From NCBI GenBank assembly GCA_020152595.1, contig JAIGNY010004511.1, forward strand, positions 124,001-188,000: a stretch of 64,000 nucleotides of DNA, in the 5' to 3' direction. The notes below the pieces were generated by a model. The model made no database searches. It was not told the origin of the DNA and saw nothing but the letters and a program-made list of their open reading frames with translations. Below are positions 9,028 through 61,500 of the stretch, in pieces. Within the stretch, counting starts at the first letter, position 1; every line of letters starts with the position of its first letter. This stretch comes from Chiridota heheva. Its lineage: Eukaryota > Echinodermata > Holothuroidea > Apodida > Chiridotidae. A program made the position numbers and the translations under genes.

Positions 9028-11546
9028 ATTGAAAGTGCACCCAAGCAGAAAAGAATGAAAAGCATTCTTGAGCAGGAATAGATTGCAGGCTGAAAGTGCA
9101 CCCATGCACAAGTTAAATTAGTGAGGGTTGCGAGCAGGATAATGGGTTGCATACTGAAAGTGCACCCATGCACAGTTATATGAGTGAGGATAATGAGCAG
9201 ATGATTGGCTTGTGCGCTGAAAGTGCACCCATGCACAAGTTATATGAGTGAGGATGGTGAACAGGTGATTGGCTTGTGTGCTGAAAGTGCACCCATGCAC
9301 AAGTTATATGAGTGAGGATGGTGAACAGGTGATTGGCTTGTGTGCTGAAAGTGCACCCATGCACAAGTTATATGAGTGAGGATGATGAACAGGTGATTGG
9401 CTTGTGTGCTGAAAGTGCACCCATGCACAAGTTATGAGTGAGGATGATGGGCAGGTGATTGGCTTGTGTGCTGAAAGTGCACCCATGCACAAGTTATATG
9501 ATTGGTTGTGTGTGAGGTGATTGGCTTGTGTGGTGGTGATGAACAGGTGATTGGCTTGTGTGCTGAAAGTGCACCCATGCACAAGTTATATGAGTGTGGA
9601 TGGTGAACAGGTGATTGGCTTGTGTGCTGAAAGTGCACCCATGCACAAGTTATATGAGTGAGGATGATGAACAGGTGATTGGCTTGTGTGCTGAAAGTGC
9701 ACCCATGCACAAGTTATATGAGTGTGGATGGTGAACAGGTGATTGGCTTGTGTGCTGAAAGTGCACCCATGCACAAGTTATATGAGTGTGGATGGTGAAC
9801 AGGTGATTGGCTTGTGTGCTGAAAGTGCACCAATGCACAAGTTATATGAGTGTGGATGGTGAACAGGTGATTGGCTTGTGTGCTGAAAGTGCACCCATGC
9901 ACAAGTTATATGAGTGAGGATGATGAACAGGTGATTGGCTTGTGTGCTGAAAGTAAACCCATGCACAAGTTATATGAGTGAGGATGGTGAACAGGTGATT
10001 GGCTTGTGTGCTGAAAGTGCACCCATGCACAAGTTATATGAGTGTGGATGGATGAACAGGTGATTGGCTTGTGTGCTGAAAGTGCACCCATGCAGTTAGA
10101 TGAGTGTGGAAGATTTATATATGAGTGTGGATGGTGAACAGGTGATTGGCTTGTGTGCTGAAAGTGAACCATGCACAAGTTATGAACAGGTGAGTGAGGA
10201 TGATGAACAGGTGATTGGGTTGTGAACAGGTGCTGAAAGTGCACTAATGCACTTATATGAGTGAGGAACAGGTGATTGGGTTGTGTGCTGAAAGTGCACT
10301 AATGTGCGCTGAAAGTGCACCCATGCACAAGTTATATGAGTGAGGATGGTGAACAGGTGATTGGGTTGTGTGCTGAAAGTGCACTAATGCACAACTTATA
10401 TGAGTGTGGATGATGAACAGGTGATTGGCTTGTGTGCTGAAAGTGCACCCATGCACAAGTTATATGAGTGTGGATGGTGAACAGGTGATTGGCTTGTGTG
10501 CTGAAAGTGCACCCATGCACAAGTTATATGAGTGAGGATGGATGATGAACAGGTGATTGGGTTGTGTGCTGAAAGTGCACTAATGCACAACTTATATGAG
10601 TGAGGAACAGGTGATTGGCTTGTGCGCTGAAAGTGCACCCATGCACAAGTTATATGAGTGAGGATGATGAACAGGTGATTGGGTTGTGTGCTGAAAGTGC
10701 ACTAATGCACAACTTATATGAGTGAGGAACAGGTGATTGGCTTGTGCGCTGAAAGTGCACCCATGCACAAGTTATGAGTTATGAGCAGGTGATTGGCTTG
10801 TGTGGAAAGTGATGCACAACATGAGTGATTGAACAGGTGATTGGCTTGTGTGCTGAAAGTGCACCCATGCACAAGGATGATATATGAGTGAGTGCACCCA
10901 TGGATGATGAGGAACAGGTGATTGGCTTGTGTGCTGAAAGTGCACCCATGCACAAGTTATATTGGTGTGGAGTGGATGATGAACAGGTGATTGGCTTGTG
11001 TGCTGAAAGTGCACCCATGCACAAGTTATATGAGTGAGGACATGAACAGGTGATTGGCTTGTGTGCTGAAAGTGCACCCATGCACAAGTTATGAGTGAGG
11101 ATGATGAACAGGTGATTGGCTTGTGTGCTGAAAGTGCACCCATGCACAAGTTATATGAGTGTGGATGATGAACAGGTGATTGGCTTGTGTGCTGAAAGTG
11201 CACCCATGCACAAGTTATATGAGTGTGGATGGTGAACAGGTGATTGGCTTGTGTGCTGAAAGTGCACCCATGCACAAGTTATATGAGTGAGGATGATGAA
11301 CAGGTGATTGGCTTGTGTGCTGAAAGTGCACCCATGCACAAGTTATATGAGTGAGGATGATGAACAGGTGATTGGCTTGTGTGCTGAAAGTGCACCCATG
11401 CACAAGTTATATGAGTGTGGATGGTGAACAGGTGATTGGCTTGTGTGCTGAAAGTGCACCCATGCACAAGTTAAATAGTGAGGATGATGGGCAGGGGATG
11501 ATTGGGTTGCACGCTGAAAGTGCACCCACGCACAACTTAATAGTGA
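9028..11546 (+). repeat. 64-bp satellite, roughly 38 copies
   Basis: The 64-bp unit contains AAGTTATATGAGTGAGGATG, then GAACAGGTGATTGGCTTG, then GCTGAAAGTGCACCCATGCAC. Copies at the left edge and the right edge (after 11470) are the most diverged, and the centre is nearly homogeneous, as expected for unequal exchange. The unit includes a short inverted repeat, GTGCA-CCCA-TGCAC. Between 10030 and 10970 many units are shortened or rearranged. Because 64 is not a multiple of three, the minus-strand frames are short staggered shadows, not genes. Confidence 0.97.
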
Positions 11547-11870
11547 GAATAACTTTTCTTCTTTATTTTCTTTATTCTGAAAACCACAAGTGATTAGGAT
11601 CAAATTTCCCTTATCAATGGCTCCATTGTACTTGTTCTCCTGTTGGTCCTGGGTTGTTGTGGAAGTTGGTGTAGATCTCAAACTAGCATTGGATGAAGTC
11701 CTTATTGTGTGGTTGAGTGGTTATTTTAATTAAAATTAGTGATCTAATTATTTGCTACAGTAAGACCTCATCAAACAACAACAACAACAGTAAGTTTGTG
11801 GTTATGATTTGCTGGAACAAATTATTAAGGAGGAGCACAGGTCATGTTGGCATATTCAGGAACTTTGTGA
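11547..11870 (+). repeat. dispersed repeat family F1, copy next to the 64-bp array
   Basis: About 300 bp here (CTTTATTTTCTTTATTCTGA, then GGATGAAGTCCTTATTG, then GTTATGATTTGCTGGAACA) are homologous in reverse orientation to 43860-44085. In both places a tandem array lies on the 5' side of the family copy. No coding capacity was seen; it looks like a non-autonomous mobile element. Confidence 0.75.
11761..11790 (+). mobile_element. very short retroposon tail inserted in the F1 repeat
   Basis: The F1 copy at 43937-43956 reads straight through ...TTGCTACAG/TAAGTTTG..., whereas here about 30 bp ending in (CAA)n are inserted. ACAGTAAG is present at both edges (11757-11764 and 11787-11794), consistent with an 8-bp target duplication. 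The inserted bases match the CCTCATCAAAC tail of the family at 6849. Confidence 0.7.
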
Positions 11871-20100: not shown

Positions 20101-23100
20101 ACATTATACATGAACAAGGATTTTGTATGAACTTTAAAAAAAATCTTTTATGATAATGATAGTCCGAATTTTGATTGATTATGGTATTTCAAGCGCAATT
20201 TTCATTCACTTTGGCGAGGCAGGCCTACACAAGTGTGTATGTTAAAATTACTTGCATGCTTCGCTAGCGCGCAGTGCCCTGTACATTATGTAATGCCCTT
20301 TACATTACACAGTGCCCTGTACATGCGACGGCAAATTAAGAAAATACGCCAAAATTTAAGGGCTTGTCGTAACCAAATACGGCAGGCAAAAAATTATGAC
20401 GCAACTTCTGGTCATGGACAATGCTATGGACTATCACCTATTATACTTACCTGGTACTCTTCTAAGCTGTATTTGACTCCATCACCTATTACACTTAAGT
20501 GGTACTCTTCTAAGCTGTATTTGACGACATCACGTATTATACTTACCTGGTACTCTTCTAAGCTGTATTTGACTCCATCACCTATCATACTTACCTGGTA
20601 CTCTTCTAAGCTGTATTTGACGACATCACGTATTATACTTACCTGGTACTCCTCTAAGCTGTATTTGACGACATCACGTATTATACTTACCTGGTACTCT
20701 TCTAAGCTGTATTTGACTCCATCACCTATCATACTTACCTGGTACTCTTCTAAGCTGTATTTGACGACATCACGTATTATACTTACCTGGTACTCTTGTG
20801 TATTTGACGACATCACGTATTATACTTACCTGGTACTCTTCTAAGCTGTATTAGACGACATCACGTATTATACGTACCTGGTACTCTTCCAAGCTGTATT
20901 TGACTCCATCACCTATTATACTTACCTGGTACTCTTGTGTATTTGACGACATCACGTATTATACTTACCTGGTACTCTTCCAAGCTGTATTTGACTCCAT
21001 CACCTATTATACTTACCTGGTACTCTTCTAAGCTGTATTTGACTCCATCACCTATTATACTTACCTGGTACTCTTCTAAGCTGTATTTGACGACATCACC
21101 TATTATACTTACCTGGTACTCTTGTGTATTTGACGACATCACGTATTATACTTACCTGGTACTCTTCTAAGCTGTATTTGACGACATCACGTATTATACT
21201 TACCTGGTACTCTTCTAAGCTGTATTTGACTCCATCACCTATTATACTTGCCTGGTACTCTTCTAAGCTGTATTTGACGACATCACCTATTATACTTACC
21301 TGGTACTCTTCTAAGCTGTATTTGACGACATCACCTATCATACTTACCTGGTACTCTCCTGTATTTGACGACATCACCTATTATACTTATCTGGTACTCT
21401 CCTGTATTTGACGACATCACGTATTATACTTACCTGGTACTCTTCTAAGCTGTATTTGACTCCATCACCTATTATACTTACCTGGTACTCTTCTGCTGTA
21501 TTTGTGACATCACCTATTATACTTACCTGGTACTCTTCTAAGCTGTGTTGTGACATCACCTATTATACTTACCTGGTACTCTTGTGTATTTGTGACATCA
21601 CGTATTACTTACCTGGTACTCTTCTAAGCTGTATTTGTGACATCACCTATTATACTTATCTGGTACTCTTCTAAGCTGTATTTGACTCCATCACGTATTA
21701 TACTTACCTGGTACTCTTCTAAGCTGTATTTGACTCCATCACCTATTATACTTACCTGGTACTCTTGTGTATTTGATGACATCACGTATTATACTTACCT
21801 GGTACTCTTCTAAGCTGTATTTACCTTACCTGGTACTCTTCTAAGCTGTATTTGACTCCATCACCTATTATACTTACCTGGTACTCTTCTAAGCTGTATT
21901 TGACTCCATCACCTATCATACTTACCTGGTACTCTTCTAAGCTGTATTTGTGACATCACCTATTATACTTACCTGGTACTCTTCTGCTGTATTTGTGACA
22001 TCACGTATTATACTTACCTGGTACTCTTCTAAGCTGTATTAGACGACATCACGTATTATACGTACCTGGTACTCTTCAAGCTGTATTTGACTCCATCACC
22101 TATTATACTTACCTGGTACTCTTCTAAGCTGTATTTGACGACATCACGTATTATACTTACCTGGTACTCTTCTAAGCTGTATTTGACTCCATCACCTATT
22201 GTACTTACCTGGTACTCTTCTAAGCTGTATTTGACGACATCATGTATTATACTTACCTGGTACTCTTCTAAGCTGTATTTGACGACATCACGTATTATAC
22301 TTACCTGGTACTCTTCTAAGCTGTATTTGACGACATCACCTATCATACTTACCTGGTACTCTTCCAAGCTGTATTTGACTCCATCACCTATTATACTTAC
22401 CTGGTACTCTTGTGTATTTGACGACATCACCTATTATACTTACCTGGTACTCTTCTAAGCTGTATTTGATGACATCACCTATTGTACTTACCTGGTACTC
22501 TTCTAAGCTGTATTTGACTCCATCACCTATCATACTTACCTGGTACTCTTCTAAGCTGTATTTGACGACATCACCTATTGTACTTACCTGGTACTCTTCT
22601 AAGCTGTATTTGACGACATCACGTATTATACTTACCTGGTACTCTTCTAAGCTGTATTTGACGACATCACGTATTATACTTACCTGGTACTCTTCTAAGC
22701 TGTATTTGACGACATCACCTATTATACTTACCTGGTACTCTTCTAAGCTGTATTTGACTCCATCACCTATCATACTTACCTGGTACTCTTCTAAGCTGTA
22801 TTTGACGACATCACGTATTATACTTACCTGGTACTCTTCTAAGCTGTATTGACGACATCACCTATTGTACTTACCTGGTACTCTTCTAAGCTGTATTTGA
22901 CGACATCACCTATTATACTTACCTGGTACTCTTCTAAGCTGTATTTGACGACATCACCCATTGTACTTAACTGGTACTCTTCCAAGCTGTATTTGACGAC
23001 ATCACATATTATACTTACCTGGTACTCTTGTGTATTTGACGACATCACCTATTATACTTACCTGGTACTCTTCTAAGCTGTATTTGACGACATCATGTAT

Positions 23101-24509
23101 TATACTTACCTGGTACTCTTCTAAGCTGTATTTGACGACATCACCTATTGTACTTACCTGGTACTCTCCTGTATTTGACGACATCACCTATTATACTTAC
23201 CTGGTACTCTTCTAAGCTGTATTTGACGACATCACGTATTATACTTACCTGGTACTCTTCTAAGCTGTATTTGATGACATCACCTATTATACTTACCTGG
23301 TACTCTCCTGTATTTGACGACATCACCTATTATACTTACCTGGTACTCTCCTGTATTTGACGACATCACCTATTATACTTACCTGGTACTCTTCTAAGCT
23401 GTATTTGACGACATCACCTATTGTACTTACCTGGTACTCTTCTAAGCTGTATTTGATGACATCACCTATTATACTAACCTGGTACTCTTCTAAGCTGTAT
23501 TTGATGACATCACCTATTGTACTTACCTGGTACTCTTCCAAGCTGTATTTGACGACATCACGTATTATACTTAAGTGGTACTCTTCTAAGCTGTATTTGA
23601 TGACATCACCTATTATACTTACCTGGTATTCTTCTTTCCTGGATATTACTTTTATAATCAAATTCTAAGTTCATTGCCAGGTATCCTGACAGATTGACCC
23701 AATATCAGGTCAAAATTTCCCAATCTACAACTCCCTTAATCTCCACAGGAGGTATTAGCTCGAAACATTCAACTTCTGGTAATAAAAGGATGGAAAGGTC
23801 AGTTCCATAAAGTTAAAGGTCATGTAACTGACCTTTCCACCCTTTTATCACCTGAACTTGTCACTTCTCACCAACAAAGCTATATTATATTTGAAAGCCC
23901 ACCTGGCAGTGTTTACAGTTGACTTTTTCAGCTGGAGATAGGCTTGAAGATGCAAGTGGTTTCAGGCAGTATATAGGGGTATTGTTTGTGGGGCTTATTG
24001 TTAAAGGACTTGTGTGGTCATATATCAGTTTAAATATATAATGTCCTGTCACAGCTAAGAACATATTTAAGATGTAATTACTTAACACTGAATAATTGAA
24101 TAGATTGAAAATAAGCAGCTTTCAACTTTTTGAATTTTTAGTCATAATTGGTCTCAAAGCCAACATGCAATAGGGTTTTTGTTTACATTGGGTAGTGGTG
24201 TAGCTTGATTGTAGTGATGCAAGTATAGCAGTGATCCTGGCCCAGATGATGCAACGATATACAAGCAAACAAACCAAAATTAAACTCAATTTTAAGAAGA
24301 AAATGCAGAACTAGTTAAAAACTTTTATTTAAATGACAAAGTCAAAGTATTGAAAACTATTAATTAACAAAGTCAAAGTATGTAAATATTTTAAAATTTC
24401 TTTTCAGGGTTCAATCTGCAATGACTGTCTGATCCTAGAATTCTGTGGACCATGCGGCCTTGCTCAGATGCAGAGGGAGATAGATAACGTAAAACAGGGC
24501 AGAATTTAA
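17047..24509 (+). CDS. PLAC8/cornifelin-family cysteine-rich protein, C-terminal two exons
   Basis: Two exons joined in phase 0 encode about 79 residues that match the PLAC8 (placenta-specific 8/cornifelin/ponzr) domain: LCAFCCTPCFMCSVAG, a cysteine pair around FMCLPLC, AVRAKIRAKYGIR, then GSICNDC, CGPCGLAQMQREID and stop. In the family the CC..PC..C and GSICxD segments are hallmarks. Members are small membrane-associated or cytosolic proteins linked to growth control, metal tolerance or epidermal roles depending on the lineage, so no specific role is claimed. The acceptor before 17047 shows that at least one upstream exon exists, but it was not recognised. The 7.2 kb intron contains a ~230-bp degenerate repeat, a 24-bp array and a 48-bp array. 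Confidence 0.88.
17510..18290 (+). repeat. degenerate ~210-270-bp direct repeat, T-rich, about 3.5 copies
   Basis: A marker segment (AACTGGAAAAGACAAATTC type, followed by CTCAGGTGGCAGTTC type) recurs in order at about 17609, 17812, 18087 and 18235, each between AATTTCC-rich stretches. The T-rich parts resemble the complement of the phased A-tract tracts. It lies in the PLAC8-like intron. Confidence 0.65.
18541..19346 (+). repeat. 24-bp minisatellite, about 33 copies
   Basis: The unit reads GCCTCTGATGGTATTCC then CTCCTAT. Variant units (GATAGT, GATAAT) and a shortened unit lacking CTATGC are arranged in blocks that recur at about 18890, 19050 and 19200, so a higher-order repeat exists. As 24 is divisible by three and no stop occurs, open frames of 254 and 299 codons arise on both strands; these are not genes. 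It lies in the PLAC8-like intron. Confidence 0.97.
19347..20426. other. intron spacer between two arrays
   Basis: No gene seen. A short palindrome, GACACAGGT-TGT-ACCTGTGTC, lies at 19530-19550. Just before the next array, around 20270-20325, a short motif CAGTGCCCTGTACAT is present two to three times. Confidence 0.6.
20427..23636 (+). repeat. 48-bp minisatellite, over 60 copies
   Basis: The unit contains GTATTTGACGACATCACC, then TATTATACTTACCTGG, then TACTCTTCTAAGCT. Two main variants alternate, GACGACATC and GACTCCATC, plus shortened units lacking CTAAGCTG. Each unit read on the minus strand contains CCAGGTAAGTAT, a textbook 5' splice-donor sequence. Since 48 is divisible by three, both strands stay open over long stretches. 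It lies antisense to those donors inside the plus-strand PLAC8-like intron. Confidence 0.97.
23637..24407 (+). other. end of the PLAC8-like intron
   Basis: Ordinary AT-rich intron sequence with no gene. A small imperfect inverted pair, GGAAAGGTCAGTT and AACTGACCTTTCC, occurs at 23791-23838. Confidence 0.5.
24408..24509 (+). CDS. PLAC8-like gene, last exon
   Basis: Acceptor TTTCTTTTCAG is followed by GGT TCA ATC TGC AAT. The exon encodes GSICNDC, then CGPCGLAQMQREID and NVKQGRI, ending with TAA at 24507-24509. The GSIC...C..C..CQ/A-x-R pattern is the conserved second half of the PLAC8 domain. Confidence 0.9.
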   Translation, partial: GSICNDCLILEFCGPCGLAQMQREIDNVKQGRI

Positions 24510-28395: not shown

Positions 28396-29219
28396 ATCCA
28401 GGAGCTGTAACAGCTCCCTGGCAGTCTATCCAGGAGCTGTTACTGTAACAGCTGTTACTGTAACAGCTCCCTGGATAGACTGCCAGGGATCTGTTACAGT
28501 AACAGCTCCCTAAATAGACTGCCAGGGAGCTGTTACTGTAACAGCTGTTACAGTAACAGCTCCCTGGATAGACTGTCAGGGAGCTGTTACAGTAACAGCT
28601 GTTACAGTAACAGCTCCCTGGATGGACTGCCAGGGAGCTGTTACAGTAACAGCTGTTACAGTAACAGCTCCCTGGATAGACTGCCAGGGATCTGTTACAG
28701 TAACAGCTCCTAAATAGACTGCCAGGAGCTGTTACTGTAACAGCTGTTACAGTAACAGCTCCTGGATAGACTGTCGGGAGCTGTTACGGTAAGTAACAGC
28801 TGTTACAGTAACAGCTCCTGGATGGACTGCCAGGGAGCTGTTACAGTAACAGCTGTTACAGTAACAGCTCCCTGGATAGACTGCCAGGGATCTGTTACAG
28901 TAACAGCTCCCTAAATAGACTGCCAGGGAGCTGTTACTGTAACAGCTGTTACTGTAACAGCTCCTGACAGTCTATCCAGGGAGCTGTTACTGTAATAGCT
29001 GTTACTGTAACAGCTCCCTGGCAGTCTATTTAGGGAGCTGTTACTGTAACAGATCCCTGGCAGTCTATCCAGAGAGCTGTTACTGTAACAGATCCCTGGC
29101 AGTCTATCCAGGGAGCTGCTACTGTAACAGATCCCTGGCAGTCTATCTAGGGAGCTGTTACTGTAACAGCTCCCTGGCAGTCTATCCAGGGAGCTGTTAC
29201 TGTAACAGCTCCCTGGTAT
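28396..29219. repeat. palindromic hairpin array
   Basis: The array is built from the palindrome CTGTTACAGTAACAG (or CTGTTACTGTAACAG) flanked by AGCTCCCTGG and CCAGGGAGCT, with spacer GGATAGACTGCC. In the first two thirds the spacer reads GGATAGACTGCC and the palindrome is often doubled (~54-bp period). From about 28965 the spacer appears in reverse complement, GGCAGTCTATCC, with a single palindrome (~39-bp period). Each unit can fold into a stem, and the two halves are inverted relative to one another. Confidence 0.95.
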
Positions 29220-31299: not shown

Positions 31300-31951
31300 T
31301 CTGTAGCTTAGCAAACAAACAAGTTACTGTATAAAATTACTGGCAAGCGTCTAATGCCATCTACAGGGGACTGCAAGGTATTTTTTTTTATCAGTGAGTT
31401 ATTAACACTGGTGATTTTACAGCCAGAGATTCAATCTCGTTATAAGCTTGAAATAACCTATTTAGTCATTCTTGGCTTTAAATAGGTTTTGTAAACCCAA
31501 TTTAAAGCCCAAATCAGCTATCAACTACAAAAGTTATATTGGACTACTCATTGGGAGAAATCCCAAACGGGAAATCACGCTCGATTAGCATATGTGCAAG
31601 ACGGTATATTAACGCTCCAGCTAATGAAAATATGTTTTCTTTTAAACGGAGATGATCGGTGGTATTTCCTGAGCCAATGTTATTACATATGCTAAATTCC
31701 TTCGGATTGCGCCAAATGAAATCAAATATTTGAAAGATTTTAAAAGAATTTTGTAATGCAGAACTTCTTATAACCATGCAACAATATGAATTGTTATTGC
31801 ATCAACATCGATCTATTTAAACCAAACATAGCAACACAGCAAAATCTCTAAAAGACGCATAGGATTTGACAAACGCTGCAAAAATCTGAACGTATCCGGG
31901 TGAGAACCTGGCTCTTAAGTTAGTCGTCGCATAAGCTCAACACCTTAAAGG
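31300..31951. other. no gene seen
   Basis: Ordinary AT-rich DNA, with stops in all frames and no repeat recognised. Confidence 0.5.
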
Positions 31952-32019
31952 ATTTGTTTGTTTGTTTGATGAGGGCTTAACAGCACCACCACAACGAGGG
32001 TCAAATTGTGCCTGAGAGG
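31952..32019 (-). mobile_element. 3' tail of the (CAAA)n retroposon family, reverse copy
   Basis: The reverse complement reads AGGCACAATTTGACC ... TTAAGCCCTCATCAAAC followed by AAAC repeats, matching 6849-6912 with few differences. Confidence 0.65.
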
Positions 32020-32237
32020 TTAGATCGTTCTAGAGGTAGGAAGGAAAGAAAACTGGGAGATTGAGAGAAATACAACAACTGAAAGTCGGAAAGCTGGGAT
32101 CGAGAGAGGAGGTGCATGGGTGAAAAAGGAAAAAAAAAGTAGTGGGAGAGGACTAAATATGGTTGTAGAGGGAAGCATAATGAAGGAGATAATTTTATCA
32201 GGAGGGTTTTTCTGGAAGAACTCGGCAAATGAGTTGT

Positions 32238-32415
32238 TAATTAAAAATTCATATTTCGCATTTGGTCTGAAGATAGTCATCTTGAAAGAATGCATCATAT
32301 CCCTCTAAAAAACAGCCTGTGCTTATTTTTAGCTCAAAATCACAGGCTGTTCTTTACAGGGATAAGAATTCTTTCAAGTTATCTTGAGACCAAATGCGAA
32401 ATACAAATTTAATTA
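32238..32415. repeat. fold-back inverted repeat with ~80-bp arms
   Basis: The left arm (TTTCGCATTTGGTCTGAAG, CTTGAAAGAAT, CAGCCTGTG) is the diverged reverse complement of 32341-32413, with a loop of about 20 bp (32321-32340). It could form a long hairpin. It adjoins the LINE remnant that starts near 32440. Confidence 0.75.
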
Positions 32416-32439
32416 CTGCTACTGTGTGGAACAGAAGCT

Positions 32440-35400
32440 TGGAATTATTTTTGACGGTCAGATGTCCATGTCAAACCAAGTTTTAACACATTCTCGTTGT
32501 CTCATTTCATCTTAACAACATTTCTCATATCCGTCGCTATCTAGACTTAAATACTTGCAATGATGTTGTGCGCTCACTCATTGTAATTAGACTGGATTAT
32601 GGCAATGTCTTGCTTCTGGGTGCTAAGGTATCTGATATTTCTAGGTTGCAATGTTGGCAAAACTTGGCAGCCAAACTTGTTTTCCGCGCAAACAAGGAAG
32701 CATGTATCCCCGCTGCTAAAACAATTACACTGGCTACCTGTCAAGGAGAGAATATTTTTTAAGGCTATGTTTTATGTTTACAATTCCTAACAGGTTTTAT
32801 CTCCGGCTAACATTTCGTGTACATGTTCTTTACTCTCCAGCTTACATTTCGTGTACATGTTCTTTACTCTCCAGCTTACATTTCGTGTACATGTTCTTTA
32901 CTCTCCAGCTTACATTTCGTGTACATGTTCTTTACTCTCCAGCATACATTTCGAGTACATGTTCTTTACTCTCCAGCTTACATTTCGTGTCCATGTTCTT
33001 TACTCTCCAGCTTACATTTCGTGTACATGTTCTTTACTCTCCAGCTTACATTACATGTTCTTTACTCTCCAGCTTACATTTCATGTACATGTTCTTTACT
33101 CTCCAGCTTACATTTCGTGTACATGTTCTTTACTCTCCAGCTTACATTTCGTGTCCATAATCTTTACTCTCCAGCTTACATTTCGTGTACATGTTCTTTC
33201 CTCTCCAGCTTACATTTCGTGTACATGTTCTTTACTCTCCAGCATACATTTCGTGTACATGTTCTTTACTCTCCAGCTTACATTTCGTGTACATGTTCTT
33301 TACTCTCCAGCTTACATTTCATGTACATGTTCTTTACTCTTCAGCTTACACTTCGTGTACAGGTGCTTTACTCTCCAGCTTACATTTCGTTTACATGCTC
33401 TTTACTCTCCAGCTTACATTTCGTGTACATGTTCTTTACTCTCCAGCTTACATTTCAGGTACATCTTCTTTACTCTCCAGCTTACATTTCGTGTACATGT
33501 TCTTTACTCTCCAGCTTACATTTTGTGTACATGCTCTTTACTCTCCAGCTTACATTTCGTGTACATGTTCTTTACTCTCCAGCTTACATTTCGTGTACAT
33601 GTTCTTTACTCTCCAGCTTACATTTCGTGTACAGGTGCTTTATTCTCCAGCTTACATTTCGTTTACATGCTCTTTACTCTCCAGCTTACATTTCGTGTAC
33701 ATGTTCTTTACTCTCCAGCTTACATTTAGTGTACATGTTCTTTACTCTCAGCGTGTACATGTTCTTTTTCCGTGTCCATGTTCTTTACTCTCCAGCTTAC
33801 ATTTCGTGTACATGTTCTTTACTCTCCAGCTTACATTTCGTGTACATGTTCTTTACTCTCCAGCATACATTTCGTGTACATGTTCTTTACTCTCCAGCTT
33901 ACATTTCGTGTACATGTTCTTTACTCTCCAGCTTACATTTCATGTACATGTTCTTTACTCTTCAGCTTACACTTCGTGTACAGGTGCTTTACTCTCCAGC
34001 TTACATTTCGTTTACATGCTCTTTACTCTCCAGCTTACATTTCGTGTACATATTCTTTACTCTCCAGCTTACATTTCAGGTACATGTTCTTTACTCTCCA
34101 GCTTACATTTCGTGTACATGTTCTTTACTCTCCAGCTTAAATTTTGTGTACATGCTCTTTACTCTCCAGCTTACATTTCGTGTACATGTTCTTTACTCTC
34201 CAGCTTACATTTCGTGTACATGTTCTTTACTCTCCAGCTTACATTTCGTGTACAGGTGCTTTATTCTCCAGCTTACATTTCGTTTACATGCTCTTTACTC
34301 TCCAGCTTACATTTCGTGTACATGTTCTTTACTCTCCAGCTTACATTTCGTGTACATGTTCTTTACTCTCCAGCTTACATTTCGTGTACATGTTCTTTAC
34401 TCTCCAGCTTACATTTCGTGTCCATGTTCTTTACTCTCCAGCTTACATTTCGTGTACATGTTCTTTACTCTCCAGCTTACATTTCGTGTCCATGTTCTTT
34501 ACTCTCCAGCTCTTTACTCTCCAGCTTACATTTCGTGTACATGTTCTTTACTCTCCAGCTTACATTTCGTGTACATGTTCTTTACTCTCCAGCTTACATT
34601 TCGTGTACATGTTCTTTACTCTCCAGCTTACATTTCGAGTACATGTTCTTTACTCTCCAGCTTACATTTCGTGTCCATGTTCTTTACTCTCCAGCTTACA
34701 TTTCGTGTACATGTTCTTTACTCTCCAGCTTACATTTTGTGTACATGTTCTTTACTCTCCAGCTTACATTTCGTGTCCATGTTCTTTACTCTCCAGCTTA
34801 CATTTCGTGTCCATGTTCTTTACTCTCCAGCTTAAATTTCGTGTACATGTTCTTTACTCTCCAGCTTACATTTCGTGTACATGTTCTTTACTCTCCAGCT
34901 TACATTTCGTGTACATGTTCTTTACTCTCCAGCTTACATTTCGTGTACAGGTGCTTTATTCTCCAGCTTACATTTCGTTTACATGCTCTTTACTCTCCAG
35001 CTTACATTTCGTGTACATGTTCTTTACTCTCCAGCTTACATTTCGTGTACATGTTCTTTACTCTCCAGCTTACATTTCGTGTACATGTTCTTTACTCTCC
35101 AGCTTACATTTCGTGTCCATGTTCTTTACTCTCCAGCTTACATTTCGTGTACATGTTCTTTACTCTCCAGCTTACATTTCTTGTCCATGTTCTTTACTCT
35201 CCAGCTTACATTTCGTGTCCATGTTCTTTACTCTCCAGGTTACATTTCGTGTACATGTTCTTTACTCTCCAGCTTACATTTCGTGTACATGTTCTTTACT
35301 CTCCAGCTTACATTTCATGTCCATGCTCTTTACTCTCCAGCTTACATTTCGTGTACATGTTCTTTACTCTCCAGCTTACATTTCGTGTACATGTTCTTTA

Positions 35401-36520
35401 CTCTCCAGCTTACATTTCGTGTACATGCTCTTTACTCTCCAGCTTACATTTCGAGTACATGTTCTTTACTCTCCAGCTTACATTTCGTGTCCATGTTCTT
35501 TACTCTCCAGCTTACATTTCGTGTACATGTTCTTTACTCTCCAGCTTACATTTCGTGTACATGTTCTTTACTCTCCAGCTTACATTTCGTGTCCATGTTC
35601 TTTACTCTCCAGCTTACATTTCGTGTCCATGTTCTTTACTCTCCAGCTTAAATTCTTTCGTGTACATGTTCTTTACTCTCCAGCTTACATTTCGTGTCCA
35701 TGTTCTTTACTCTCCAGCTTACATTTCGTGTACATGTTCTTTACTCTCCAGCTTACATTTCGTGTCCATGTTCTTTACTCTCCAGCTTACATTTCGTGTC
35801 CATGTTCTTTACTCTCCAGCTTACATTTCGTGTACATGTTCTTTACTCTCCAGTTGCTATTTTCTGCTTCAAACTGTCAAAATTTCAATGGTTAATGCCC
35901 CTCTCTGAGCTTAATTCGATTGGCCACATTTTAATCATATCACACGCTCAGTCTGGCCAGCCCTTGCTGCACTACAATCATCTAAGCTCAAGTTATCATT
36001 ACACAAATAAAGGAGATATGATATGCCCGTGATTCCTAAACTTTGTATCCGTTTGACCACATTTGCAAGAGTGATTACAGAGGCTATGAACAGACAGGTT
36101 CAATTTCATGTGTGCTGGTTTGATTGCCTGGAGGCAGGGATTTTATAACAAACTCCTTGTGAATGTCATAACTCCTGCTCATTGAGGCATGATGAAACCT
36201 TCAAAATTAGCAATCAGAGAGTAAAAGAGCATATACACGAAATGTATCTCTCTACTAATGTAATACTGCATCGCCCTAGGGGCCGCCCTAGGGGCGAAGG
36301 TTTACATTCCGCATCCGACAGAATCCGCGTGAAAGAAGTATGAATAGACAATCACTTAAATCTGCAGCTGACAAAGATTTCTTTTATATTGCCCCTAAAC
36401 TCTGGAATCACTTAACCATTAGCATTCGTACAGCCAACTCTTTACCAATTTTAAAGAAAACATTAAAATCACATTTCCTCAGTCATAATACTTGCTTTTT
36501 CTGTCACCTCCAGTTCTTTT
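32440..36520 (+). mobile_element. CR1/Rex1-like LINE RT C-terminus split by a satellite
   Basis: Before the array, plus-strand translation gives KLGIIFDGQMSMSNQV, then VVRSLIVIRLDYGNVLLLGA, LQCWQNLAAKLVF and LHWLPVKERIFFKAMFYVYNS. After the array (36340-36510) it resumes with SLKSAADKDFFYIAPKLWNHLTISIR and LPILKKTLKSHFL. These blocks are consecutive in CR1/Rex1-type LINE proteins, where the intervening piece is a short LSPAYIS-type loop. Here that loop is replaced by a 3 kb 34-bp array plus ~450 bp of other sequence. Confidence 0.8.
32806..35853 (+). repeat. 34-bp satellite derived from LINE coding sequence, about 90 copies
   Basis: The unit reads ACATTTCGTGTACATGTTC then TTTACTCTCCAGCTT. 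In the LINE frame it spells PAYISCTCSLLS, and the first copy is continuous with the LINE motif LSPA. Variant units (GTACAGGTGC, TTTCGTTTACATGC, TTTCAGGTACAT) recur in the same order about 620 bp apart (33340-33740 and 33960-34360), showing segmental duplication inside the array. The unit has no stop in any plus-strand frame, and 34 is not a multiple of three, so all three frames stay open (up to 907 codons). None is a gene. Confidence 0.97.
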
Positions 36521-36955
36521 CATCATTTTGTATTTTATTTTATGTATATTTATCTTTTGGCGCTGTGGTCTTGTTGTAGTATAGAAGTCTATTGTATGTA
36601 TGTATATGCTATAACTCCTGAATCGAATAAAATATTAACGTGGTTAGAATCTATAATCCTGTCATATATATTTGTGTACATTATACAACAATTCCAATAT
36701 AGTGCTCAGGAGATACCATGCAGTCACAAACATAACGACATAGGGTTCCCGATGCTTTCTTTTTGAGACCATAAAGATTCTTCAAAAAGATTTGAAACAA
36801 AATCCTATTGTTTCCAGATACATGAAGGGAATAAATTTGTTTCCTTTCATGTATCATATCAACCAGAACAAAAAGGTTTTGTGGTTCCGATGCTTTTGTC
36901 ATATGCTGATTGATTTGCAAGTTTTGTATTAACTTCTTATGTCATGAAATATTTG
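36521..36955. other. LINE 3' flank; no gene seen
   Basis: AT-rich DNA with AATAAA near 36625 and a small hairpin (TACATGAAGGGAA pairing with TTTCCTTTCATGTA) at 36821-36856. Confidence 0.45.
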
Positions 36956-41631: not shown

Positions 41632-43671
41632 GCGTGACTATGGAACAGAGATCATGCGTGACTATGAAACAGAGATCAAGCGTAACTATGGAACAGAGAT
41701 CATGTGTATCTATGGAAGTGACTATGGAACAGAGATCATGTGTGACTATGGAAGTGACTATTGAACAGAGATCCTGCATGACTATGGAGCAGAGATCCTG
41801 CGTGACTATGGAACAGAGATCCTGCATGATTATGGAGCAGAGATCCTGCGTGACTATGGAGCAGAGATCCTGCGTGACTGAGGAGCAGAGATCCTGTGTG
41901 ACTGGAGCAGAGATCCTGCATGACTATGGAGCAGAGATCCTGCATGACTATGGAGCAGAGATCCTGCATGACTATGGAGCAGAGATCCTGCGTGACTGAG
42001 GAGCAGAGATCCTGTGTGACTGGAGCAGAGATGCTGCATGACTATGGAGCAGAGATCCTGCATGACTATGGAGCAGAGATCCTGCGTGACTATGGAGCAG
42101 AGATCCTGCGTGGCTATGGAGCAGAGATCCTGCATGACTATGGAACAGATCCTGCATGGCTATGAAACAGAGATCATGCATGGCTATGAAACAGAGATTG
42201 GGAGGCGTGGCTATGGAACAGAGATCGGGAGGCGTGGCTATGGAAAGAGATCAGAAGGCGTGACAATGGAACAGAGATCAGGAGGCATGACTATGGAACA
42301 GAGATCAGGAGGCGTGACTATGGAACAGCAATCAGGAGGCGTGACTATGGAACAGAGATCAGGAGGCGTGACTATGGAAGAGAGATCAGCAGGCGTGACT
42401 ATGGAACAGAGATCAGGAGGCGTGACTATGGAACAGATCAGGAGCCGTGCCTATGGAACAGAGATCAGGAGGCATGACTATGGAATAGAGATCAGGAGGC
42501 GTGACTATGGAACAGAGATCAGAAGGCGTGACAATGGAACAGAGATCAGGAGGCGTGACTATAGAACAGAGATCAGGAGGCGTGACTATGGAACAGAGAT
42601 CAGGAGGCGTGACTATGGAACAGAGATCAGGAGGCGTGACTATGGAACAGAGATCAGCAGGCATGACTATGGAACAGGGATCAGGAGGCGTGACTATGGA
42701 ACAGAGATCAGGAGGCGTGACTATGGAACAGAGATCAGCAGGCGTGACTATGGAACAGAGATCAGGAGGCGTGACTATGGAACAGAGATCAGGAGCCGTG
42801 CCTATGGAACAGAGATCAGGAGGCGTGACTATGGAACAGAGATCAGGAGGCGTGACTATGGAACAGAGATCAGGAGGCGTGACTATGGAACAGAGATCAG
42901 GAGGCGTGACAATGGAACAGAGATCAGGAGGCGTGACTATGGAACAGAGATCAGGAGGCGTGACTATGAAACAGAGATCAGCGGGCGTGACTATGGAACA
43001 GAGATCAGGAGGCGTGACTATGGAACAGCGATCAGGAGGCGTGACTATGGAACAGAGATCAGGAGGCGTGACTATGGAACAGCGATCAGGAGGCGTGACT
43101 ATGGAACAGAGATCAGGAGGCGTGACTATGGAACAGAGATCAGGAGGCATGACTATGGAACAGAGATCAGGAGGCGTGACTATGGAACAGAGATCAGGAG
43201 GATTGACTATGGAACAGATCAGGAGGCGTGACTATGGAACAGAGATCAGGAGGCGTGACTATGGAACAGAGATCAGGAGGCGTGACTATGGAACAGAGAT
43301 CATGCGTGGCTATGGAACAGAGATCATGCGTGGCTATGGAACAGAGATCATGCGTGGCTATGGAACAGAGATCATGCATGGCAATGGAACAGAGATCATG
43401 CATGACTATGGAACAGAGATCATGCGTGGCTATGGAACAGAGATCATGCGTGGCTATGGAACAGAGATCATGCGTGGCTATGGAACAGAGATCATGCATG
43501 ACTATGGAACAGAGATCATGCATGACTATGGAACAGAGATCATGCATGACTATGGAACAGAGATCATGCGTGGCTATGGAACAGAGATCATGCGTGGCTA
43601 TGGAACAGAGATCATGCATGGCAATGGAACAGAGATCATGCATGACTATGGAACAGAGATCATGCACACAC
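41632..43671 (+). repeat. 24/27-bp minisatellite in three blocks
   Basis: All units share CTATGGAACAGAGATC. In the first block (to ~42190) and last block (from ~43290) the unit is 24 bp, ending CTGCGTGA or ATGCGTGG. In the central block it is 27 bp, ending AGGAGGCGTGA. The last block has a higher-order pattern of ATGCGTGGC and ATGCATGAC subtypes. Both periods are multiples of three and stop-free, so open frames of up to 417 codons on both strands are array by-products. Confidence 0.97.
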
Positions 43672-43859: not shown

Positions 43860-44085
43860 GATACTACTCTGTTCAAATAATAACATTGAAATGCTTGCCA
43901 TGACGTGTCCTTCTCCTTAAAAATATGTTCCAGCAAATCATAACCACAAACTTACTGTAGCAAATAGTGAGAACACTTTATCCTAATTAAAATAACCACA
44001 CAATAAGGACTTCATCCATTGCTAATATGATACTCAGCAGCAATTTCCACAACAACTAAAGTTTTCAGAGTAAAAAAAATAAAGA
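43860..44085 (-). repeat. dispersed repeat family F1, reverse copy (empty site)
   Basis: Read on the minus strand this matches 11560-11870: CTTTATTTTTTTTACTCTGA, then GGATGAAGTCCTTATTG, GTTATTTTAATTA, TTGCTACAGTAAGTTTG and GTTATGATTTGCTGGAACA. It lacks the 30-bp insertion present in the other copy, so it shows the pre-insertion state. Confidence 0.75.
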
Positions 44086-58500: not shown

Positions 58501-61500
58501 CCAGTTCCACAACATTGCTTTTTTTTTTTAAGAATATGCTGAGGCCTAAATTTTTTCAATGTTTCTGTGCTTAATCTTTTGAGATAGAAGCCATGTAAAG
58601 AACATTTGTATGCATAGTGGGTGTTTATTTGAGGATTTATGTACATATTTTGCAGTAATTTCTATTAATTTTTCCAAAAGTTTTACTTTGACTTTTTTTG
58701 AGCCAAGATGAGATTACCTTGCACATATCGGTACATACAACTTGCGTATGACATCATATAATTTGCATATCGATATTTCGATAATATTGATATTTTTCTG
58801 GCGATATATCGATTTTGCATAATGCTCAATATCGCCCAAGCTTATCCCTCTACCCAAGAATAATGAATCATCACTCATACCCATGAACAATGATCATCAC
58901 TCATACCCAAGAACAATGAATCATCACTCATACTCAAGAACAATAATCATCACTCATACCCACGAACAATGAATCAAAACCCATACCCAAGAAATGAATC
59001 ATCGCTCATACCCAAAAACAATGAATCATCACTTATACCTCAGAACAATGAAACATTACTCATACCCAAGAACAATGAATCATCACTCATACCCAAGAAC
59101 AATGATCATAACTCATACACAAGAGCAATAATCATCACTCATACCCCAGAACAATGAAACATCACTCATACCCAAGAACAATGAATCATCACTCATACCC
59201 AAGAACAACGAATCATCACTCATACCCAAGAACAATGAATCATCACTTATACCCAAGAACAATGAATCATTACTCATACCCAAAAACAATAAATCATTAC
59301 TCATACCCAAAAACAATAAATCATCACTCAAACCCAAGAACAATGAATCATCATTCATACTCAAGAACAATGAATCATCACTCATACCCAAGAACAATGA
59401 ATCATCACTCATACCTAAGAACAATGAATCATTCCTCATACCCAAGAACAATGAATCATCACTTATACCCAAGAATAATGAATCATCACTTATACCCAAG
59501 AACAATGAATCATCATTCATACTCAAGAACAATAAATCGTCACTCAACCCAAGAACAATGGATCATCATTCATACTCAAGAACAATGAATCACCACTCAT
59601 ACCCAAGAACAATAAATCATGACTCATACCCAAGAATAATGAATCATCACTTATACCCAAGAACAATGAATCATCATTAATACTCAAGAACAATAAATCG
59701 TCACTCATACCCAAGAACAATGAACCATCACTCATACCCAAGAACGATAAATCATCATTCATACCCAAGAACAATGACTAACCAAGTAGATTATTCCAGG
59801 CATTACCAGGGCCATCACAGAAGAGACAACTGCATCGATATAAATAACCAATATTCGTTGAGTTTTATGGAAGTTAGTGTTATTCAATTATTCCACAAGA
59901 GTTATATTATTCAGAATGACTACATCATATTCAGATTTTTCTATCTTTATTGTAAGTATTGACAGGGAAAAGAATCCCAAACGATCCTAAAGTACGTCTG
60001 TACTAGCTAACAAATCTGTCAAACATATATGGGCGATTATCAAAAAGGTTTACTATAATCTTTTGGAAAAGTATATTCCCTGCAAGATTGTCAAACCTGG
60101 CATGAAACTTAAGACTCTGTGGTCGCGGTACCATTCAGTTCAGCAAGTTAAAGTCATGACCACACAAATCTTGGGTGGAGGTTAGAAAATCAGGTTTAAA
60201 TGCAGATCATTTTAAATATTTGAGTGAAAAGAAACAAGTTAGCATTTGTGTTTCAGAAGCTAAGGCAGATTATGAGAACAAACTTGTGCAACAGATTCCT
60301 AATGAACCAAGAAAGTTCTTCAATTTTTGCAGGCATTACATGCGATCTTCATCTACTGTGGATTCACTTGATTTTAATCGTGAAGTGGTTACTGACGGAT
60401 GACATGAGGAAAGCTAATATTTTGAATGACATCTTTACATCAGTGCTTACTCAAGAGCCGATTGACTTTACATCTCTTCCTGAGGTTAATTCTAAGTATG
60501 TATCTTCATTTTTGGATGACATTAAGTATCTCTACATATGATGTAAGGCAGAAATTATCTAAATTAAACAGGAATAAAGCTTGTGGACCATATCATGTAC
60601 TTGTTAATGTACTACATGAGATTCCTAATTTTGACATTCCATTATCCAATATATTCCAGTATTCTTTACATACCGGTTGTGTGCTTCAAGATTGGCGTGA
60701 TGTGATGGTAACATTACTTTTCTCACGAAGAAAGGGTCTACAATGAATCCAAATAATTATAGACCTGTTTCCATGACAAGCCAGAAAGTTAAGCTACTTG
60801 AGAGATTGGTGCTTGAAAGAAAACTACTCCAAGCACACAAACACTTGGCCAAGGCTTTTGTGAATTTTGAGGCCAGCTTATAAATAGTGCCAGAGCAGTA
60901 TCTTTTATACCAATTAACCTACACATACATTTAAGTAATACATGTTTCTTAGTCACCTGAAGGACGTAAATTACATTTGTTATACTCATCCATGAGATTT
61001 AGGCATTGTAAACATTTTTCATTAACGAGATCCATGTAAATCATTCACACAACATCAGCTCTGTATGCAACATGATGACATTCATGAAGAACACATAAAC
61101 AACATGCTCAAAACTAATCATGAATGTTATCCACACAAAACATATGTAATACTAACCCATGATCAGATCTGTGTATAACATGTAGACAGCCTTATTGTCC
61201 CATGGGTTTTCACTCTGTAGATCAATGGTGTGGAGTACATACTTCAAAAACACACTGGCTATGATGGTGAACAAGATAGCATACTGAAAGAAAAATTAAA
61301 GAAATGTTTAGTTTACTTCCATTAAGACAGTTTCATAAAGCGTTTGGTTTGGTTTGTTGATGTTTAATGGCACTGTGACAGTCAAATGTGCCAAGAGGGT
61401 GTTAGAAACTTAGGTGCAAGAGTTAGGACAGAGAAGGTTGGGAGAGGGGATAGGAAGGAGAGGGAGAGGGGATAGGAAGGAGAGGAAAAATAAAGGTGCA

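Follow-up and report, generated by a model that had tools for sequence, protein, structure and literature searches.

How did the 34-bp tandem array that interrupts a LINE in Chiridota heheva come into being, and did its unit grow out of the LINE's own codons, as a first-pass annotation of this stretch of 64,000 nucleotides (the window) had proposed? The founders of tandem repeats are usually hidden, since later homogenisation erases them. Here an uninterrupted LINE, a transposon lacking the array, a founder junction and the finished array survive side by side, so that the route we propose could be read base by base. We consider it most likely, with high confidence, that the array began at the border of a MITE-like element inserted into the LINE, through duplication of the junction between the two.

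The interrupted LINE and its array

The following features (positions of the window) are used throughout.
32431..32808, plus strand: 5' part of the interrupted LINE copy, C-terminal reverse transcriptase (RT) region, ending ...TCTCCGGCT (blastn, empty-site alignments)
32800..35853, plus strand: 34-bp tandem array, 90 units, consensus TCTCCAGCTTACATTTCGTGTACATGTTCTTTAC (TRF, unit-by-unit phasing)
32800..32833, plus strand: unit 1, the LINE/transposon junction, with LINE TCTCCGGCT followed by AA and CATTTCGTG... (unit table)
32809..36244, plus strand: whole insert relative to empty LINE copies, comprising the expanded left TIR (the array), the body of the MITE-like element and its right TIR
33236..34366, plus strand: block duplication within the array, 33236-33745 being repeated as 33857-34366
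35813..35863, plus strand: last array unit passing into the inner left TIR, ...TTTACTCTCCAGTTGCTATTTT (inverted match to the right end)
35854..36203, plus strand: body of the MITE-like element (genome search)
36204..36244, minus strand: right TIR of the MITE-like element, single copy, inner side (reverse complement) TCTCTGATTGC, without TCTCCAG
36245..36605, plus strand: 3' part of the LINE, resuming with TATCTCTCTACTAA... (many matches reach ~36605)

TRF calls the array at 32796-35853 (34-bp period, 89.4 copies, 91% matches), which together with the LINE flanks confirms an array of about 3 kb within a LINE; the count of 90 units comes from phasing on TCTCC from 32800. The consensus is matched exactly by 38 of the 90 units, the 85 full-length units differ by 4.9% on average, and the two blocks of the internal duplication are identical at 506 of 510 positions, ungapped. 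As the annotation had stated, all three plus-strand frames stay open across the array (long ORFs include 672, 907 and 583 aa), because the unit contains no TAA, TAG or TGA on that strand. These open frames are a by-product of the unit; they need no coding explanation and do not indicate a function.

LINE-type protein pieces lie on both sides of the array, two of them 42% and 40% identical to a reference LINE sequence, and the element may belong to the CR1/L2-like group. Pfam gave zero matches for these short pieces, a PDB search with them gave two weak, unrelated matches only, and no relatives were found among viral contigs, plasmids and phages. The reference LINE, used as bait, also led to L001 (PIVJ01000154.1), a contig that carries a long LINE-like ORF, is filed under a Bacteroidetes MAG and is probably eukaryotic contamination. 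The upstream LINE had been described as running in frame to LSPA and as resuming at SLKSAADK, and neither description holds: the upstream pieces lie in three frames, the frame reaching LSPA contains a stop, and the LINE resumes at 36245, 107 bp before SLKSAADK (36352), after a non-LINE segment of 391 bp (35854-36244) that is a separate multicopy repeat.

The borders of the insert are set by other copies of the LINE. Searched with 32440-32700, the window's own genome (1.1 Gb) contains this LINE in at least 40 places, the window included, and 37 of the 39 other listed places were fetched for comparison. The left blastn match stops exactly at 32808 in 17 of these 37 copies and the right one starts exactly at 36245 in 20. 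With both flanks abutted by script, 33 of the 37 span the site and lack the 3.4-kb insert, showing only small indels there, with 10 or fewer inserted bases close to the junction; the remaining four (L033, L040, L043, L045) do not span it. Among the matches listed, the LINE copies are 74-87% identical to that of the window. The uninterrupted LINE reads approximately ...TCTCC[A/G]GCTTATCTCTCTACTAA..., or in longer context ...ATCTCC[A/G]GCTTATCTCTCTACTAAC..., and one copy (L077) keeps a 181-codon open frame across the site, SLTGSSPAYLSTNIILHHPR, which contains SPAYLSTN.

Two small features lie close to the interrupted copy. A 12-bp tandem duplication, CGCCCTAGGGGC, occupies 36272-36295 in the right LINE flank (TRF on L047), where 12 bases are missing from many other LINE copies, and a self-inverted element (32238-32415; 190 columns, 78.9%) is located immediately upstream of the LINE piece.

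Two parents of one unit

The segment between array and LINE points to a transposon. Positions 36204-36246 repeat, in inverted orientation, the last array unit and the ten bases that follow it (35822-35863), aligned over 43 columns with a local score of 49, the maximum in 1000 Markov shuffles being 29. Apart from the window itself, a genome search with 35848-36246 returned at least 43 match rows on many contigs, at 70-91% identity; 22 of these rows end at query positions 397-399, the right end, and 29 of the 43 were cut out and fetched as loci, some of them partial. Two-ended copies measure ~380-450 bp. One side of the other copies reads CATTT[T/C]GTGTATTTGCTCTTTAC-TCTCCAGTTGC and the opposite side CATTTCGTGTATTTGCTCTTTAC-TCTCTGATTGC, with one end of each type in 14 copies. 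The inner sequence of left-type ends elsewhere is near-identical to that at 35813..35863, and in 14 of 23 such ends the distance from TIR start to TCTCCAG is 23 nt. TCTCCAG occurs in none of the 26 ends not classed as left (five of them unclassified), although the end classes were built on inner sequence and its absence from right ends is partly a matter of definition. Matching dinucleotides flank 4 of 15 two-ended copies. The members of this multicopy family have terminal inverted repeats and are short and dispersed, and the insert is, judging from these alignments, a MITE-like element belonging to it. Foldback transposons carry internal tandem repeats in the TIRs of many of their copies; no such array was found in the 29 other copies fetched here.

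TIRs with internal tandem repeats are nevertheless known (Tetris and Galileo, in the portion of PMC4079207 drawn on here), which raises the question of whether this copy, like such foldback elements, already carried the array when it jumped into the LINE. We regard this as very unlikely and reject it on array-less copies, a flank control and a single-locus scan: TRF detects a 34-bp array in 0 of the 29 other fetched copies (some partial), each of which has 0-2 TIR sites in forward orientation, the assembly contains no further array whose unit matches at 0-1 mismatch, and the LINE flank would have to match the start of the unit at 10 of 11 positions by chance, whereas the flanks of other MITE copies, 42 in number, reach at most 6.

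Other kinds of tandem repeats were noticed in a few members of the family. Unrelated arrays (20 bp, 67 bp and TA) occur in 3 of the 29 other copies (L053:1924-2093, L058:1956-3403 and L073:1938-2287, respectively), starting no more than ~60 bp from the point where the match ends on the right. In addition, in a left end at L067:1468-1510, TTACTCTCC has undergone a small local duplication within the TIR, at the point of the TIR where the array unit of the window also starts.

The unit itself can be divided between the two elements. When the unit is compared with the empty sites of the 33 LINE copies that span the insertion point, its positions 1-11 (TCTCCAGCTTA) agree at a mean of 9.5/11 (range 7-11), whereas positions 12-34 match the LINE continuation at a mean of 7.4/23, close to the 6.8 of shuffled LINE. 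The same positions 12-34 match 49 MITE-type ends at a mean of 18.4/23, these ends having been selected as similar to the family TIR (no more than 5 mismatches) and including five of neither end type. The control was a set of 42 flanks at the junctions of other MITE copies, several of which share one flank; these match TCTCCAGCTTA at only 0-6 of 11 positions. An earlier scoring on 31 of the 37 LINE copies had given 9.7/11, a value biased upward by choosing copies with a string that included the tested 11 nt. On this comparison the array unit is a chimera, roughly one third of it coming from the LINE and two thirds from the end of the transposon, so that the MITE end is its main parent. Since 7 of the 11 LINE-like nucleotides are nearly common to LINE and TIR, the strictly LINE part is therefore CTTA, or CT if the TA belongs to the element.

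These figures also decide on the founder that the annotation had named, a piece of LINE coding sequence expanded into a satellite. SPAY does lie directly before the site in the LINE, and 5 of the 33 empty sites contain TCTCCAGCTTA, identical at 11/11 to the unit start; but only these first 11 of 34 nt match the LINE beyond chance, intact copies go on as TATCTCTCTACTAA or close to it, and the following 23 nt are the MITE end. Aligning intact LINE copies with the unit, the check suggested at the time, thus yielded 33 of 37 copies spanning the site without the unit, with positions 12-34 near chance. The apparent peptide PAYIS is composed of PAY from the LINE and IS from the transposon end CATTTCG, where L077 reads SPAYLSTN. 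An origin from LINE codons is refuted as stated and almost certainly wrong, and the case cautions that a satellite lying within a coding frame need not derive from that frame. What survives of the claim for a visible birthplace is a readable founder junction in an array apparently born in place; what falls is the parentage, the main parent being the MITE end and not LINE codons.

An additional degenerate unit just upstream of the array was considered and dismissed, as the local score of 32700-32794 was reached by 52% of 1000 shuffles; with part of the first unit included, the score was reached by 6 of 1000.

Probable birth at the junction

The array has one locus in the assembly. A pattern scan with the 23-nt TIR part, allowing at most 3 mismatches, gave 108 genome sites, and all 69 sites with 0-1 mismatch fall in the array of the window. 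The 21 listed sites outside it have 2-3 mismatches, 12 of them lying in MITE loci, while 8 of the 108 are unlisted and, given the ordering by mismatch, should have 3. A reversed-pattern control gave 80 forward and 2 reverse sites, probably again the array, the 23-mer being nearly its own mirror image. A genome-wide satellite family is rejected, with all sites at 0-1 mismatch confined to one locus, and the repeat is a single-locus minisatellite in this assembly. Their confinement to one array speaks for birth in place, and the array appears to have been born where it now lies.

Blocks within the array do move by duplication, and the nested insertion together with its array might likewise have arisen elsewhere and reached this site as a copy, through segmental duplication or gene conversion. 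We hold this to be extremely improbable: the scan shows the unit, at 0-1 mismatch, nowhere else, and among the matches listed LINE copies are 74-87% and MITE copies 70-91% identical, none being near-identical. Comparing the flank 31400-32200 with the genome, very common words being skipped, gave zero near-identical second loci (best other match 86%), and the same search showed neither an intermediate of one or two units nor a second allele. Part of that flank, 31400-31950, belongs to an interspersed repeat of very high copy number (4629 candidates at first look; long matches 82-86% identical).

The nested insertion, the empty sites, the MITE relatives without an array, the chimeric unit, the duplicated block and the single locus are directly supported, and from them we infer an order of events for the origin at the LINE/transposon border. 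The MITE-like element would have inserted into the C-terminal RT codons of the LINE at the TA in ...TCTCCGGCT|TATCTCTCT. By chance, TCTCCGG (32800), the LINE sequence immediately outside the new junction, resembles bases 24-30 of the left TIR (TCTCCAG). In the array-less junction, the distance from TCTCCGG to TCTCCAG would then have been 34 nt (9 LINE, TA and 23 TIR), equal to the unit length, a founder spacing reconstructed by combining LINE copies with MITE copies. The first 34-nt duplication may have come about when the two 7-nt near-repeats mispaired by slippage or took part in unequal exchange, the evidence fitting either; it would have given a composite unit of 11 nt LINE and 23 nt TIR, which would have grown to ~90 units by unequal exchange or gene conversion, block duplications included. 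That the right TIR has no TCTCCAG would explain why the left border alone expanded.

The first unit retains two peculiarities. At position 6 it is the only one of the 90 units with G, the others having A as in the TIR. This fits a slip from the near-repeat in the TIR back to the one in the LINE, and G stands at the equivalent position in L010-L012, three of the most similar LINE copies. As a fossil it is weak, because 15 of the 33 empty sites carry A there (G 17, A 15, T 1). Furthermore, unit 1 has CTAAC and not CTTAC, so that a target duplication of TA is suggested by the later units, just as the TA at the insertion site is deduced from empty LINE sites together with those units.

Known systems and the wider window

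Birth of minisatellites by slippage between direct repeats of 5-10 bp has been proposed before (Haber and Louis 1998; Taylor and Breden 2000, as summarised in an excerpt of PMC3389668), and 7 bp is given there as the majority size of direct repeats flanking TE-derived tandem repeats. The present case resembles this model in that short direct repeats, here 7 nt with one mismatch, flank the duplicated segment; it differs from the model, as outlined in that excerpt, in that one repeat lies in the target LINE and the other inside the inserted transposon end. Composite satellite monomers have been hypothesised to arise from "TE graveyards", a process proposed, in the passages of PMC12628747 available to us, from monomers resembling several TEs. 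Our locus likewise has a monomer with short stretches of two TEs, one nested in the other, but in its case one genome preserves the two parents along with the empty site and the founder junction, and the 34-bp monomer lies at a single locus.

Closer to the MITE side, the TIR of a non-autonomous DNA transposon also supplies a tandem repeat in Tetris/TIR-220 of Drosophila virilis; going by the text seen of PMC4079207, those repeats are internal to the TIR, whereas the window's unit spans the outer end plus target DNA, in one copy only. Xstir and miDNA4 of Xenopus are further MITE-linked tandem repeats, with microhomology invoked for miDNA4, and the same passages of PMC12628747 describe them as internal to the MITE, unlike our unit. 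CRM1TR and CRM4TR of maize share with it an array founded at an identifiable junction, attributed there to illegitimate recombination at short repeats, yet according to the section of PMC3648361 at hand they derive wholly from CR elements, and a DNA transposon end is not involved. Satellites resembling LINE ORF2, PROsat and HinfI, are already in print (a fragment of PMC9659126), so a LINE-coding parent would not be new either. In the literature judged by title or abstract opening, we recognised no same case of a satellite unit spanning an insertion junction. The mechanism is thus known in kind, and the unusual part is that parents, founder and product are found together in one genome.

Many arrays of this minisatellite-rich genome could have started likewise, a TE end beside a chance microhomology turning a target-TE junction into a monomer, though we put this forward as a doubtful generalisation. 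If true, composite monomers would be a routine outcome of nested insertions, and founder junctions could be found by comparing first units with empty sites.

The window (1-64000) is itself very rich in minisatellites, with 97 TRF rows, some overlapping; examples are a 64-bp repeat at 9089-11547, a 48-bp repeat at 20433-23635 and 27-bp repeats at 42184-43662 and 58844-59777. A palindromic minisatellite at 28405-29216 contains AGCTGTTACAGTAACAGCT-type units in both orientations, which form arms as long as 129 nt (97%). At 1502-2242, on the minus strand, lies a reverse transcriptase RNase H domain (Pfam PF17917, E 8.9e-23), presumably of Ty3/gypsy type. Finally, the same 60-nt sequence (92%) occurs in opposite orientation at 11787-11846 and 43899-43958, each copy ~240 bp past the end of a minisatellite.
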